Of a DNA stretch of 28,360 bases, positions 1 to 27,729 are shown piece by piece. Positions within the stretch are counted from its first letter, which is position 1, and the number at the start of each line of letters is the position of its first letter. The notes below the pieces were generated by a model that was given only the letters and a program-made list of their open reading frames with translations, had not been told where the DNA came from and made no database searches. The DNA is from a virus. The stretch is taken from positions 1 to 28,360 of IMG/VR virus record IMGVR_UViG_3300009164_000273. One strand, 5' to 3'. The translations under genes and the position numbers were made by a program.

Positions 1-122
1 ATAAGCTTACCATCTTTTGTTTGTCTCTCTTTTGATGTCGCTGTGGGAGATTGCACACGTCTGCAGATTTTACCATCACTGATGGTAAGGTAGATAGCAG
101 AATTTTTAATTATTGATCCCAT
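1..122 (-). CDS. Conserved-looking hypothetical protein, 5' part only
   Basis: An open frame starts at ATG 122-120 and runs without a stop to the left edge (40 codons seen). The protein begins MGSIIKNSAIYLTISDGK and continues with ICRRVQSPTATSKERQT. It follows the upstream gene (stop at 147) by 24 bases in the same operon, and no other frame offers a better gene here. The pattern of a short beta-strand-like start followed by DGKICRRV resembles small unnamed proteins I associate with Bacteroidetes phages, but I cannot assign a function. The C-terminal part lies outside the window. Confidence 0.5.
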   Translation of the reverse strand, partial: MGSIIKNSAIYLTISDGKICRRVQSPTATSKERQTKDGKL

Positions 123-416: not shown

Positions 417-1169
417 TTACAATTTATGTGTTAATGAATAAGTTTTAATTTTCGGTTTCATGTCGCTGTTTTGTGCATCCCATAAAAGCTTAGTTGCGTT
501 AAATAGTTTTAAGTCATTTGCACGCTCATTATCTTCACGAATAATTAACTGCCAACCTGCACCCTGTATAGCACCATTTTTACCGGCTGTTCTAGTCTTA
601 GCATTTAGCCAAAGTATTGCGACATGGTCGATAACATTGATTGACTTGTAGGCCTCTTTTATCAGCTCATTATAAGCCGCTAATTGTAGCCAGTAATGGT
701 CGTAAATGGTATTTGATGTCTTGATGTCAATTAGGTAGTTTTTGCCGTTAATCTGTGCTATACGATCAACTGTTCCAGCATAGCCTAACTGCTCACTAAT
801 AAAGTTAATTTCGCTGAACATTATCTCTTGATCTACTTGTTGCCTGTACTCAACATAACGCTCAAACATGGTCCACTCGGACATTTTGTAACCGATGTTG
901 CCTCCGTTATCTAATAAGTTAACCTCTTCACCAGCATCGTAACGCTCAGTAAGGCTATGAACGATAGAACCACGTCTACCGGCTTCATCTCTGATGGTAT
1001 CTGCCTCTTCCCCAACTTGTTTAAGCCATTGGAAAAAATGGGCATCTTTAGGATAAGCTTGTAGAATGGTTGTAACTGATGGAATAAATGCACCTGATTC
1101 TGATGAATAGAATCTGTTGTCTGTAAATGTGATTTGCTTTTGATTAGTATCTATAAAATAATTGCTCAT
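417..1169 (-). CDS. PD-(D/E)XK superfamily nuclease (RecB/Cas4-like)
   Basis: A probable DNA exonuclease or endonuclease of the RecB/Cas4 branch, 250 aa. The visible core is: RRGSIVH with His71; Glu120 in a strand; the D motif in GTVDRI (Asp135); the D-x-K motif in LIDIKTS (Asp148, Lys150); and the following helix motif QLAAYNEL (Gln162, Tyr166). This order (H, E, D, DxK, QxxxY) is the standard arrangement for metal-dependent RecB-like nucleases. No helicase or Cys cluster is attached, so it is not a canonical Cas4. It sits in an operon of small unknown genes. In phages such nucleases commonly serve recombination or degradation of host DNA. The family is clear; the role is inferred. Confidence 0.88.
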   Translation of the reverse strand: MSNYFIDTNQKQITFTDNRFYSSESGAFIPSVTTILQAYPKDAHFFQWLKQVGEEADTIRDEAGRRGSIVHSLTERYDAGEEVNLLDNGGNIGYKMSEWTMFERYVEYRQQVDQEIMFSEINFISEQLGYAGTVDRIAQINGKNYLIDIKTSNTIYDHYWLQLAAYNELIKEAYKSINVIDHVAILWLNAKTRTAGKNGAIQGAGWQLIIREDNERANDLKLFNATKLLWDAQNSDMKPKIKTYSLTHKL

Positions 1170-1180
1170 GTTGTTTGATT

Positions 1181-1324
1181 TTAGGATGATTTAGTTTTAA
1201 GATTCTGTCTTGTTTTTGTTGTTTTAGTATCAGGTCTATTAAAGTACTGAACTTTTTTTTTGTGTTCAATATCTTCTGTCGATTTGAATAATTTGTCATA
1301 AATTTTCTTTAAGATTTTTACCAT
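1181..1324 (-). CDS. Small basic protein, 47 aa
   Basis: ATG at 1324-1322 opens a frame ending at TAA 1183-1181. The start overlaps the stop of the upstream gene within ATGGTAA, a typical arrangement for translational coupling, and the stop lies 11 bases before the nuclease start. The protein begins MVKILKKIYDKLFK, has a run of three Lys in the middle and ends in a Thr/Lys-rich tail. It is very basic and might bind nucleic acid, but no family is recognised. Support comes from packing and coupling, not homology. Confidence 0.5.
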   Translation of the reverse strand: MVKILKKIYDKLFKSTEDIEHKKKVQYFNRPDTKTTKTRQNLKTKSS

Positions 1325-1665
1325 ATATAATGCTCTTTTTTTAAATTCATTTCTAATCTATCAATAGCCTTAGTAAAATCAACACAAGTGCAAATGATGA
1401 AGTCATAAATATCTTGCTCTTTGTAATCACTCTCCATTTCATCCCAATAATTATCAAATGTCAAGTGGTAAGATTTTGTTACAAGTTGACCAGTGCTGAT
1501 ATCCTGAGTTTCAAAGTATAGACGGTCATGTCTAAGTAGATACTGGATAAAAGCATGTATAGGAATTACGATGCTGTTTGGAGTATAATTATTTTCACTG
1601 ATTTGCACGATAATAGTATCATGTCTAAGTACAAAGTCATGGATGTTGAACAATCTTTTTTTCAT
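1318..1665 (-). CDS. Hypothetical protein, 115 aa
   Basis: I take the start at ATG 1665-1663, giving MKKRLFNIHDFVLRHDTIIV. This choice is preferred because an A-rich leader precedes it and it reduces overlap with the upstream AT-hook-like gene to 29 bases. An in-frame start at 1746 would add 27 residues that lie entirely over that gene. The protein is rich in aromatic and acidic residues, with no signal peptide or membrane span. Its stop overlaps the start of the 47-aa gene. Function unknown. Confidence 0.6.
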   Translation of the reverse strand: MKKRLFNIHDFVLRHDTIIVQISENNYTPNSIVIPIHAFIQYLLRHDRLYFETQDISTGQLVTKSYHLTFDNYWDEMESDYKEQDIYDFIICTCVDFTKAIDRLEMNLKKEHYIW

Positions 1666-1825
1666 ACTGTTTAATTTTAAATAATGAATAATCTTGTAAA
1701 ATGTTTCTAGTTGCCAATGTGCCACCAAGTTTGTCAATTTGCTCATCTGATAAATAGACGATAACTGGCTTCTTTTTTTTGCTTTCAGGGATTGGCTTTC
1801 TCCCTCGTTTTTTTGTTTCTGTCAT
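1637..1825 (-). CDS. Small AT-hook-like protein, 62 aa
   Basis: The chosen start at 1825-1823 gives MTETKKRGRKPIPESKKKKP. The KRGRKP core matches an AT-hook, the short minor-groove-binding motif for AT-rich DNA. The next segment, VIVYLSDEQIDKLGG, has the strand-then-helix pattern of ribbon-helix-helix-like small phage proteins. An in-frame ATG at 1858 would add 11 hydrophobic residues overlapping the 28-aa gene and is less likely. It is second in the operon after the promoter at 1942-1974. A DNA-binding or early regulatory role is an inference from the motif. Confidence 0.6.
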   Translation of the reverse strand: MTETKKRGRKPIPESKKKKPVIVYLSDEQIDKLGGTLATRNILQDYSLFKIKQYEKKIVQHP

Positions 1826-1829
1826 TTTT

Positions 1830-1916
1830 TTAAAGTTGGTTAAAAATGTAATCACCAAGTAAGGCGATTATGATAAAAATTGTTACGATGATTGTGTCTT
1901 TAGTTGATTGCTTCAT
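1830..1916 (-). CDS. Tiny single-span membrane protein, 28 aa
   Basis: The frame begins MKQSTKDTIIVTIFIIIALL and ends with GDYIFNQL and a TAA stop. Residues 9-20 form an uninterrupted hydrophobic stretch that could cross the membrane once, with a positively charged N-terminus favouring an N-in orientation. It is the first frame after the operon promoter (TSS expected near 1935) and its stop is 4 bases before the start of the AT-hook-like gene. The spacing fits a real gene. At this length a chance frame cannot be excluded. Function unknown. Confidence 0.45.
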   Translation of the reverse strand: MKQSTKDTIIVTIFIIIALLGDYIFNQL

Positions 1917-1931
1917 TTTGTTAGATTTTTG

Positions 1932-1946
1932 ATTTGAGATTCAAAT
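1932..1946. promoter_or_regulatory. Palindrome overlapping the -7 element, candidate operator
   Basis: ATTTGA, 3 bases, TCAAAT is a perfect inverted repeat covering the downstream half of the -7 element and the expected transcription start. A protein bound here would block the promoter. AT-rich palindromes arise easily by chance, so this stays a candidate. Confidence 0.35.
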
Positions 1947-1974
1947 ATAAAGAAACTTATTTTAATTAACCAAA
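1942..1974 (-). promoter_or_regulatory. Bacteroidetes-type vegetative promoter
   Basis: On the minus strand TTTG (1974-1971) is followed after 21 bases by TATATTTG (1949-1942). This matches the known Bacteroidetes consensus of a -33 TTTG/TTG element and a -7 TAnnTTTG element. It points left into the operon starting at 1916 and lies in a very AT-rich gap without genes, downstream of the late terminator. A 15-base palindrome overlaps its -7 end. Confidence 0.7.
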
Positions 1975-2016
1975 TAAAAATAATATTTTTTATTATTTTT
2001 TTTATTATATCCTAAA

Positions 2017-2035
2017 TGTCAGCGTAAAACTGACA
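2017..2035. promoter_or_regulatory. Inverted repeat TGTCAG-N7-CTGACA upstream of the promoter
   Basis: Six-base perfect arms separated by 7 bases, about 43 bases upstream of the -33 element and just past the late terminator. No T-tract follows on either strand, so it is not a terminator. Its arms are richer in GC than the surrounding AT sequence. It could be an activator or repressor site. The rest of the 1917-2154 gap holds only the promoter, the palindrome and the terminator. Confidence 0.35.
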
Positions 2036-2045
2036 AAATAGATAT

Positions 2046-2078
2046 AAAAAAAAACCTCCAATGTAGAAACATCGGAGG
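2046..2078 (-). terminator. Rho-independent terminator closing the late/lysis operon
   Basis: On the minus strand CCTCCGATGT, loop TTCT, ACATTGGAGG forms a 10-bp stem with one G-T pair, followed directly by nine T residues. It lies 76 bases beyond the endolysin stop and separates the virion/lysis operon from the next promoter. Confidence 0.88.
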
Positions 2079-2154
2079 GAATGAAAAACAAATCTACCCT
2101 AGAAGATGGCTCAAAACGTAGATACGTTAAGCCGTTATTTACTAACAAACGAAA

Positions 2155-2604
2155 TCATATTTTAAAGTATAATTCTGCCTCACATGTTCTGCGCCTGGTG
2201 AGACCTTTAAGCTCCATCAATTCCCCACCTACTCTAGCTTTGTTCCAACGCATGAACTCATCTTTTATTGTAGGATCATTAGGATTGGTTAATATCTTTT
2301 TTCTTAGTGTTGATTTAGCAAATGCTCCAATACCAAGATTGTAAACAAAAGATAACAACGAATCAAATTGATTTTGATTAAGATTAAGGCCATGCAAAGC
2401 ATTAGATTTATTTTTTAATTCCCACATCAGCATCTGCTCAGCTTGTTGCTCATTAATGGTATCACCCATTTTTATTTTTCTACCATCAGTGTACATGGTA
2501 CTTCCCCAACCTATGGTAACTACAGATGCCGGACATAAGTAAGCCTTAGCTTTATAACCCTCAAATAACTTAATTAAGTTTATGCAATTTTTTGACGCTA
2601 TCAT
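2155..2604 (-). CDS. Endolysin, T4/P22-type lysozyme (GH24)
   Basis: A muramidase that cuts the glycan backbone of peptidoglycan at the end of infection, 149 aa. The GH24 catalytic pattern E-8-(D/C)-5-T is present as Glu15, Cys24 and Thr30, followed by IGWG. Cys replaces the Asp of T4 lysozyme, as is known for several phage endolysins of the lambdoid 21/P1 group. The C-terminal half has the helical features of the fold (NQFDSLLSFVYNLG, then the Arg-rich RRRTCEAELY end). No signal peptide or SAR anchor is evident (the N-terminus is MIASKNCINLIKLFEGYKAK), so it probably needs a holin. It overlaps the spanin-like gene by 4 bases and is the last gene before the terminator. Confidence 0.93.
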   Translation of the reverse strand: MIASKNCINLIKLFEGYKAKAYLCPASVVTIGWGSTMYTDGRKIKMGDTINEQQAEQMLMWELKNKSNALHGLNLNQNQFDSLLSFVYNLGIGAFAKSTLRKKILTNPNDPTIKDEFMRWNKARVGGELMELKGLTRRRTCEAELYFKI

Positions 2605-22173: not shown

Positions 22174-22232
22174 ATCTTTTTTATCTGTTTGTAATCTATG
22201 TAATCAATTTTAACCATTTTTCTATTTCTCTC

Positions 22233-22252
22233 TATATATATATATATATATA
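22233..22252. repeat. (TA)10 tract
   Basis: Ten uninterrupted TA dinucleotides in the 187-base gap before the primase gene end. Such a tract melts easily and lies 24 bases from the first heptamer repeat, consistent with a DNA-unwinding element or with replication slippage. Confidence 0.85.
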
Positions 22253-22263
22253 CTTTAGTAAAA

Positions 22264-22295
22264 TAAATATAAAAATAGGTTACATCGGTTACAAA
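22264..22295 (-). promoter_or_regulatory. Possible promoter for the packaging/virion operon
   Basis: On the minus strand TTTG (22295-22292) is followed after 20 bases by TATATTTA (22271-22264), one mismatch from the Bacteroidetes TAnnTTTG element. Two heptamer repeats (GGTTACA at 22278 and 22287) fall inside the spacer, so a protein binding these repeats would control it. Alternatively, the phage sigma factor may use a different sequence here. Confidence 0.4.
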
Positions 22296-22503
22296 TGTTG
22301 TTATTTAATTGATTTTCAATACGTTGGGATGTAACCAATCCGTAAATAAATCGGTTACAATTAAAATAAATCGGTTACATTGGTTACACTTTCTATGAAG
22401 TTATTATGATTTTTTCCTATTTTAAAGTACTTTTTGTTGTTATCTTGTCTATTTTTGTAACCAATGTAATCAATCCCAAAAATTTGGGAACCTATTTGTA
22501 ACC
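22276..22503. repeat. Cluster of GGTTACA/TGTAACC repeats, candidate iterons or operators
   Basis: Five direct copies of GGTTACA (starting at 22278, 22287, 22353, 22373 and 22382) and three inverted copies TGTAACC (22330, 22456, 22497) lie within 230 bases. Most direct copies are preceded by TC, TT or TA, giving a 9-mer TCGGTTACA; two 9-mers are adjacent (22276-22293), and two others are spaced 20 bases apart (22351 and 22371), about two helical turns. The cluster straddles the 3' end of the primase gene and borders a (TA)10 tract, as replication origins often do. It could also be an operator array for the promoter at 22264-22295. Confidence 0.7.
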
Positions 22504-25786: not shown

Positions 25787-27263
25787 CTATTAATAGTTTT
25801 AAAAATGATTGTGTATCAATACCGGCTTTAATGATGTTGTCTTGCATATCATTACACCAGCACCATAAGTAGTTTTCAATTTGTCGGGCATCGAATGTAG
25901 GATATTTTTTCAAACTTTGCAAAGCCATTTTTTTGTATGCTAATATTTGCACTTCATTACGTGCAACGATAGTACTAGATTTTATGGCTTGTACTGCTTG
26001 CACTGGCATAGTTTTCAAATCTTCAACAAAATAAGATGTGGTATAATTTTTCTTATTGCATACTGCTTTATAAATACGCTCCTCAATGCCATTGATGGCA
26101 AATATCCAATGTACTTTAGCAGCTTCAACTCTATCTTTAGATTGTAGCCTTGCTCTTACCTGAAAATAAGTAACTGCAGAAAAATCAATATTGTAACACA
26201 CCAGGCAATCGGCAGTAGATAGGTTTACACCTTCTCTACCACTCACAAATTGGGATAAGAAAATCATATCATCATTGGCTTGAAATTCCTCCGGTGATTC
26301 GGTACATTTTAAGCCTCTTTTTTGCGCTCCTAACATTAGGACAGTACGTTCAGCTTTAAACTTATAAAAGATAGCAAATTTTAAGCCCTTGAACGTGTCA
26401 AAGATATAATTCACTTTACTATCATCAGTGATAGCTGAATCTTGTTCATCACACATAGCCACATCAAAAATAACAGTGCCTGAGTAAAGCTGATGTAGTT
26501 TTGATAGTAGTTTCACTTCGGTATCTGCTTCAATAATATCCCCATTTTTACCTATGACAACTTTGTCAATACGTAGTCTATTGCATACTTGGTATGTCCT
26601 ATCAGACATGGCAACCTGGTGGATATGCTCATCAACTAATTGTGTAAATCCTGCCTCTTCCTGAGTATAGGATAAAAATAAATGGCTTACTACTTTGTCA
26701 ATGGCTTCTTTATTGGCATTTGTATAATCATGAATCTGTCTATTAAATACATACTTAGATTCAATGGTTACAAATCCCTCTCTAGCCCATGTATAAAAGT
26801 TTTTCTGTGTAAATGGATTAAATGAGCTTATCCAAAATTGATGATAAAGTTGGCTATAAGATTCGGGTGATGGTGTCCCACTAAGATATATGATTGGAAG
26901 GTTATGACATAGCCTCTTTAATTCTTTAGTACGTTTGGAAGGAATGGCAAAGGCACCAGTGCAATGAGCCTCATCAATTATCACCAGGTCAAAGTACTGA
27001 TCAGTGATATTATGCAGTTGCTCAAAGTTTATGACAAAGCATTTAAAGTGTTGTTTGTAATGCTCATAATCTGCTACTACGCTTAATGTAGCTTTCTTTT
27101 TTGTTACAAAGAGTATGTTTTTTGCACCATAAAGTTGACACGTATTAAGGGCAGTTAGTGTTTTGCCTGTTCTAACTTGCATGGATAGATAGGCTATTTT
27201 GTATTGTTTTAAAAGCTCGCAAGCTTTGGTTGATATCTTAACCTGGTAATCTCGTAATTGCAT
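25755..27263 (-). CDS. SF2 DEAH-box / SNF2-like helicase
   Basis: A 502-aa ATPase. Motifs: opening LRDYQ (Q-motif region), Walker A MQVRTGKT (Lys34, Thr35), motif II IIDEAHC (Asp97-His100), motif III LSGTPSP (Ser128-Thr130), and motif VI FQVRARLQSKDR (near residue 385). The second RecA domain has a SGREGVNLSTADCL segment (about 345-360) as in SNF2/RapA-like remodellers. Phage enzymes of this type move along duplex DNA and may support replication or recombination, but a role in transcription is equally open given the neighbouring sigma gene. It overlaps the sigma gene by 26 bases. Confidence 0.9.
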   Translation of the reverse strand: MQLRDYQVKISTKACELLKQYKIAYLSMQVRTGKTLTALNTCQLYGAKNILFVTKKKATLSVVADYEHYKQHFKCFVINFEQLHNITDQYFDLVIIDEAHCTGAFAIPSKRTKELKRLCHNLPIIYLSGTPSPESYSQLYHQFWISSFNPFTQKNFYTWAREGFVTIESKYVFNRQIHDYTNANKEAIDKVVSHLFLSYTQEEAGFTQLVDEHIHQVAMSDRTYQVCNRLRIDKVVIGKNGDIIEADTEVKLLSKLHQLYSGTVIFDVAMCDEQDSAITDDSKVNYIFDTFKGLKFAIFYKFKAERTVLMLGAQKRGLKCTESPEEFQANDDMIFLSQFVSGREGVNLSTADCLVCYNIDFSAVTYFQVRARLQSKDRVEAAKVHWIFAINGIEERIYKAVCNKKNYTTSYFVEDLKTMPVQAVQAIKSSTIVARNEVQILAYKKMALQSLKKYPTFDARQIENYLWCWCNDMQDNIIKAGIDTQSFLKLLIDENILDRQRN

Positions 27264-27729
27264 TAGATAAATTTTTCTTTGCGTAATAAAATTGGCTTAT
27301 TGAGTAAGATTGTGTTGTGTTTAATATTTTAGCTATTTCAATAAAGTTATAACCAGCAAGCTTTAAAATAACTACATTTCTTTGGCTTTCTTTTAAGTTG
27401 TCAATTTTTGACAATAAACTTTTTAAACGTAATTCTGTTACAATATTATCTTCTTTTGTAACAACCAAATCAGAATAATCAGCTATTGAGTAAATCTTGT
27501 CAACTGGTATGTAGTTTAGATGTTTTTTGTTGCGTCTGTAATTATCAATAAATGCAAAATTTACAAGTTTTGATAAGTATTTAAGGTTGACTGATTCGGG
27601 TGATTTTTGCCATAATTTAATAAGGACATTTTGATATATTTCGTTGATGGTATTATCATCTGTTGTGTAAGATGAGATATTGGACTTTATAAACTTGCCA
27701 TATTTTTTTATAATCAGATTTATGTCCAT
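27238..27729 (-). CDS. Phage-encoded sigma-70-family (ECF-like) sigma factor
   Basis: A 163-aa protein with the two domains of a group-IV-sized sigma factor. Region 2 reads INEIYQNVLIKLWQKS (27-43) and KLVNFAFIDNYRRNKK (55-69), matching the -10-recognition and core-binding helices. Region 4 reads LKESQRNVVILKLAGYNFIE (112-131) and IAKILNTTQSYSISQFYYAK, with a helix-turn-helix at about 126-150. Region 1 and the long linker of primary sigmas are missing. It would direct host RNA polymerase to phage promoters, possibly the late set. The start is 5 bases after the T-tract of a terminator-like hairpin. The gene is coupled to the helicase gene. Confidence 0.85.
   Translation of the reverse strand: MDINLIIKKYGKFIKSNISSYTTDDNTINEIYQNVLIKLWQKSPESVNLKYLSKLVNFAFIDNYRRNKKHLNYIPVDKIYSIADYSDLVVTKEDNIVTELRLKSLLSKIDNLKESQRNVVILKLAGYNFIEIAKILNTTQSYSISQFYYAKKNLSNAITRLPG

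Follow-up and report, generated by a model that had tools for sequence, protein, structure and literature searches.

The promoter-bearing gap of this viral DNA is very probably the junction of the two ends of a gene map that is read in a single direction, with a host-type early promoter standing behind a terminator. Based on this reading, transcription of the structural and lysis genes would stop at the terminator (2078-2055), sparing the next unit from late read-through, and about 80 nt beyond it the host main sigma factor (of the sigma-ABfr type) would recognise TTTG/TATATTTG. The new transcript, beginning about 1937, would carry the leader, a 28-aa peptide, a small regulator and two small ORFs, and would continue through the exonuclease and the SSB-like protein into the remaining part of the replication block. 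A promoter of host consensus could fire once the DNA enters the cell, and for this reason TTTG/TATATTTG is most likely the early promoter; we infer its early timing, and also an autoregulation by the second gene. The reading starts from what the sequence itself offers, namely the promoter and the terminator, their conservation, the gene order and the purifying selection on the small genes. Most likely the promoter is a well conserved but ordinary early-operon promoter of a phage, working in the standard host manner.

Gene map, terminator and promoter

In the window, by which we mean the whole stretch of 28,360 bases that was analysed, all genes have one direction and lie on the minus strand (Table 1). 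Along that strand the lysozyme gene (2604-2155) is followed by the gap, by ORFs of 28, 62, about 115 and 47 aa and by the exonuclease, then by an 88-aa ORF, the SSB-like gene, a sigma-like factor, a helicase, an HNH-type ORF and a VRR-NUC-like ORF, and finally by the primase-polymerase, the terminase and structural genes, after which the lysozyme gene comes again; the HNH, VRR-NUC and structural labels are our own reading of the sequence, while the terminase label has separate support. Since both window ends fall within one SSB-like gene, the genome should be circular or permuted, and the record is evidently a nearly complete genome of this kind that was cut inside the gene, with roughly 90 codons (about 0.3 kb) absent between the two contig ends. 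The SSB-like gene has one intact homologue (Table 1) and more distant forms in loci L026, L028 and L029. The relatives occur in Bacteroidota MAGs.

Table 1. Features of the window, with strand and supporting observations
Feature	Position	Strand	Observation
SSB-like protein, N-terminal 40 codons	1..122	-	gene cut by contig end; intact homologue L007:5756-6610
PD-(D/E)XK exonuclease	417..1169	-	phrog_298, E 1.9e-39; weak Cas4-like match
47-aa basic protein	1181..1324	-	small basic protein at the equivalent place in relatives
About 115-aa conserved alpha/beta protein	1318..1665	-	start set to the MKKRLF methionine in line with relatives
62-aa RGRK-N-terminal, RHH/CopG-like putative DNA-binding protein	1637..1825	-	weak family scores, below curated cut-off
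28-aa single-span membrane peptide MKQSTKDTIIVTIFIIIALLGDYIFNQL, first operon gene	1830..1916	-	alignment, dN/dS, relatives
15-base inverted repeat ATTTGA-N3-TCAAAT	1932..1946	.	spans -7 end and start site
Bacteroidota-type promoter	1942..1974	-	-33 TTTG 1974-1971, 21-nt spacer, -7 TATATTTG 1949-1942
Second hairpin TGTCAG-N7-CTGACA	2017..2035	-	-9.6 kcal/mol, z -5.0; between terminator and promoter
Intrinsic terminator CCTCCGATGTTTCTACATTGGAGG then T9	2055..2078	-	-15.5 kcal/mol, z -5.6; compensatory changes
Further hairpin GGCTTAACGT-ATCT-ACGTTTTGAGCC	2108..2134	-	directly past lysozyme gene; terminator-type loop
Phage lysozyme gene, end of upstream transcription unit	2155..2604	-	PF00959, E 2e-34
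SSB-like protein, last 52 codons	28202-28360	-	C-terminal part of the gene begun at 1..122

The gap between the lysozyme gene and the 28-aa ORF (1917-2154, 238 nt) is the largest intergenic gap in the window and holds the promoter. On its lysozyme side stands the element with the strongest support in the window, the terminator, which the initial annotation had overlooked together with the further hairpin next to the lysozyme gene. It is a G+C-rich hairpin of 10 pairs with a run of T9, as an intrinsic terminator should be, and it is predicted to end the late or lysis transcript just upstream of the promoter. In 15 distinct sequences 99% of the cells pair, and 7 of 8 pairs have changes on both sides; no shuffled or slid version comes close. 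It is noted that the tandem hairpins at 2108-2134 and 2055-2078 have a common loop type, GT-NTCT-AC, of which the loop is largely kept across lineages and the stems vary, and that the TTTCTA terminator loop, for which a host-like origin was considered, is only weakly enriched in two Bacteroidota MAGs relative to controls. A search of Rfam for a structured RNA family gave no match. The second inverted repeat, which had been noticed before upstream of the promoter, is a real hairpin by its folding energy, but it is deleted in L002 and missing from the sister group, and because of these absences it is taken to be dispensable.

The promoter is identified by the host consensus. The main sigma factor of the Bacteroidota recognises TTTG/TANNTTTG, refined to TAHHTTTG at the second element, with transcripts starting 4-5 nt downstream of the -7 element, while the -33 element is generally weak in genes of F. 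johnsoniae (PMC6847099). The -7 element TATATTTG agrees with TAnnTTTG and with the refined form, and TTTG lies at the proper spacing of 21 nt, the spacing among relatives being 18-23 nt. This is the one strict match to TTTG-N19-21-TAnnTTTG that the window's coding strand contains, with 0.42 expected in shuffles; the three strict matches on the plus strand are all within genes that are read on the other strand. With the consensus placing the start 4-5 nt past the -7 element, the transcript is therefore predicted to begin about 1937 with a leader of about 20 nt, which is A-rich before the ATG and free of a Shine-Dalgarno sequence. This is consistent with translation in Bacteroidota, where an A-rich stretch before the start codon goes with translation without Shine-Dalgarno sites (PMC6847099). 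By contrast, scans for promoters of the E. coli sigma70 type, whose consensus is wrong for this phylum, did no better than shuffles.

The claim of a vegetative-type promoter leading an operon of small coding genes and a nuclease is supported; the promoter is kept among the relatives and opens the recombination and replication block. Among the near loci with enough upstream DNA, 26 of 28 have a promoter match leading this operon, which usually lies 800-1250 nt ahead of the nuclease gene; of the two exceptions, L011 keeps the -7 box with TTTT in place of TTTG and L029 has none. In the wider set the promoter heads the same operon in about two thirds of the loci (about 36 of 53, by our own count, in which some loci are duplicates or truncated), and the scan of this set gave no strict motif at the promoter place in, for example, L053, L057, L061, L065, L073 and L078. 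Scans of whole records gave the promoter in most of them and few other matches on the coding strand. Across 42 distinct leaders the start region reads H-T-T-T-A(+1)-T-C/A-A-A, with A preferred as the fifth base past the -7 box (31 leaders). Our literature search found no publication on mapped promoters of Bacteroidota phages.

Note also that an iteron-like array lies at 22278-22503, where 8 copies of TGTAACC, both direct and inverted, occur within 226 nt, the whole window having 16 copies against 3.8 expected. The array straddles the end of the primase-polymerase gene, is kept in L112, L113 and L114 and has a diverged form in L115; it is a candidate replication origin. For the gap that follows the primase-polymerase gene (22174-22360) a late promoter was considered and rejected, the gap having this repeat array instead of a Bacteroidota motif.

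The small genes and the nuclease

The first gene of the operon (ORF 1916-1830) is the 28-aa membrane peptide, just as the initial annotation had it. Its relatives are present in 26 other loci, the form in L029 having no more than 26 aa, and since two groups give it dN/dS values of 0.13 and 0.11, we take the ORF to be a real gene. The small genes of the operon are under purifying selection, with dN/dS from 0.09 to 0.42. Unrelated small ORFs are seen between the promoter and the peptide gene at L019:4025-4235, L024:4010-4231, L025:4111-4242 and L031:4007-4222, and none of these four gave a family match worth the name.

The second gene encodes a 62-aa protein that had been described as AT-hook-like. 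Near its N-terminus it has an RGRKP motif whose G, R and K are invariant in 18 sequences, and the description is only partly right; in the canonical AT-hook core a P follows GR, and L060 has RGRPR. The remaining sequence resembles RHH/CopG proteins instead. Eight of the 18 family members match RHH_7 (best E 8.8e-5), and the protein of the window scores 18.9 bits, below the curated Pfam cut-off of 27. The model of the monomer has no strand assigned and has helices at 27-32 and 36-59 behind an extended segment, and a Foldseek search of the PDB with it gave no structural match. The family scores, weak as they are, suggest a protein closer to a ribbon-helix-helix regulator than to an AT-hook protein. 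The strongest case for a transcription regulator in this slot comes from distant relatives (L026, L028, L029, L075, L095, L107 and L109), in which a short Xre-type HTH gene takes its place; those of L026 and L029 are put by PHROGs in transcription regulation. Most likely the second gene regulates the early promoter or later genes.

Two small ORFs had been expected between the regulator and the nuclease, and both are there. The protein of about 115 aa has a dN/dS of 0.09, and a fold search with a 112-aa form gave no confident match; the sister-group counterpart of the 47-aa basic protein has an N-terminal membrane span. The nuclease, earlier called RecB/Cas4-like, is indeed a PD-(D/E)XK enzyme by its phrog_298 match, whereas its likeness to Cas4 is weak. 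It scores 23.6 bits with PF12705 (cut-off 22), and its predicted catalytic residues D135 and D148-I149-K150 are invariant in 12 sequences. Relatives of it were found in 31 viral sequences and subsequently in 294 viral stretches; a further one is in L034, a long bacterial contig (460 kb) of a Niabella MAG, where it may belong to a prophage or to a phage that was binned wrongly. The block order, with the tiny membrane peptide, the regulator, the protein of about 110 aa, SSB and the nuclease, recurs among relatives, with the regulator swapping between the RGRK/RHH-like and the Xre-HTH type.

Two proposals on what these small genes do have to be weighed, neither of which we consider likely. The first is that the operon is an early-read island for host takeover or anti-defence. 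Its position behind a host-type promoter is what would be expected of such an island, and the extra unrelated small ORFs before the peptide, in L056, L058 and L063 as well as in the four loci above, resemble what accessory regions carry and are only weakly compatible with it. Yet the small proteins have no defence or counter-defence match in PADLOC, PHROGs and Pfam, which are not dedicated anti-defence collections, the remainder of the operon is devoted to recombination and replication, and the purifying selection on the core genes and the swaps of the regulator fit ordinary phage regulation equally. The second, which we put forward as a tentative suggestion of similarly low probability, is that the 26-31-aa membrane peptide and the exchangeable DNA-binding protein (RGRK/RHH-like or Xre) form a module dedicated to control in a large group of Bacteroidota phages. 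The peptide would then act on the host membrane, e.g., to exclude superinfecting phages or to set the time of lysis, while its DNA-binding partner would tune the single early promoter via the conserved transcript-start sequence.

The start-site palindrome and the timing of the promoter

The palindrome that had been reported to overlap the promoter does exist at the -7 end. It reads ATTTGA-ATC-TCAAAT, with arms of 6 and a spacer of 3, and as an RNA hairpin it is negligible (-1.5 kcal/mol, z -1.5). If it were an operator, the RGRK/RHH-like protein would bind over the -7 box and the start site and repress its own operon. We regard this as quite improbable, in spite of the regulator gene lying directly behind the promoter, of regulator-type genes occupying the slot across many lineages, and of inverted repeats with arms of at least 5 that use the -7 box, which are found in 14 of the 42 distinct leaders against 5.2 in shuffles. 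When the leaders are exchanged between lineages, 14.5 such repeats arise, so there is no matching within a lineage; as the -7 box is nearly invariant, this control shows only that the common downstream sequence suffices for the repeats. Moreover, the exact palindrome is absent from L002-L006, L008, L023 and L030, which carry a closely related regulator.

The enrichment is accounted for by the recurrent ATCAA transcript start. One half of the palindrome is the -7 box itself and the other half is the recurrent A-rich start (T)CAAA. TATCAA stands at the identical offset in 14 of the 42 leaders against 0.09 in shuffles, a figure that is not a probability, the leaders being homologous, and the recurrent start is present also where the palindrome does not form (TTTGCTCTATCAA). 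Thus the operator was rejected as the best reading on the swap and shuffle controls and on the absence in close relatives, and the palindrome itself, which spans the -7 end and the start site, is probably incidental. It is noted that absence of the palindromes from relatives had been named beforehand as speaking against the original claim; such absence is found in part for the palindrome but not for the promoter.

That the promoter is late or constitutive, with small genes that are not early, is very improbable: the window does encode a sigma-like factor of its own (27238-27729, phrog_1740, E 1.5e-8), but the motif, as the host consensus, requires no phage factor, and of the viral records that were searched only the window and G004 have the sigma gene, the others keeping the promoter, on which ground a phage-encoded sigma factor as a general late switch was rejected as well.

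Significance and comparison with known systems

With the host-type early promoter behind a terminator as the preferred reading, a concrete, conserved predicted transcript start and operon structure become available for small Bacteroidota phages that are uncharacterised and, with 294 viral stretches encoding a relative of the nuclease, widespread. Annotation of these phages can make use of the paired promoter and terminator, the mechanism most likely being the standard host one, and a 28-codon ORF, of a kind that gene callers usually skip, is seen to be real and under selection.

Compared with sigma-ABfr promoters (TTTG / TAHHTTTG; PMC6847099), the promoter of the window shares both elements, the 21-nt spacing and the A-rich sequence before the start codon, whereas it is borne by a phage, has an AT-rich stretch and hairpins directly upstream and has a start site that is predicted only. 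With the early operons of siphophages the window shares the order of regulator, exonuclease, SSB and replication genes behind a host-type promoter; it differs in that the 28-aa membrane peptide leads, in its regulator, which is RGRK/RHH-like in the window but of the Xre type elsewhere, and in that the genome is transcribed in a single direction throughout. By its model the 62-aa protein would share with the Arc-like repressors of RHH_7 (PF16777) and phrog_3431 the extended segment and two helices after a basic N-terminus, but it is below the curated cut-off, has an invariant GRK at the N-terminus and gives a model without a Foldseek partner. Finally, the nuclease matches the PD-(D/E)XK exonucleases of phrog_298 over most of the protein, while the nearest named phage protein, that of Leptolyngbya phage Lbo-JY46, is only 50% identical to it.
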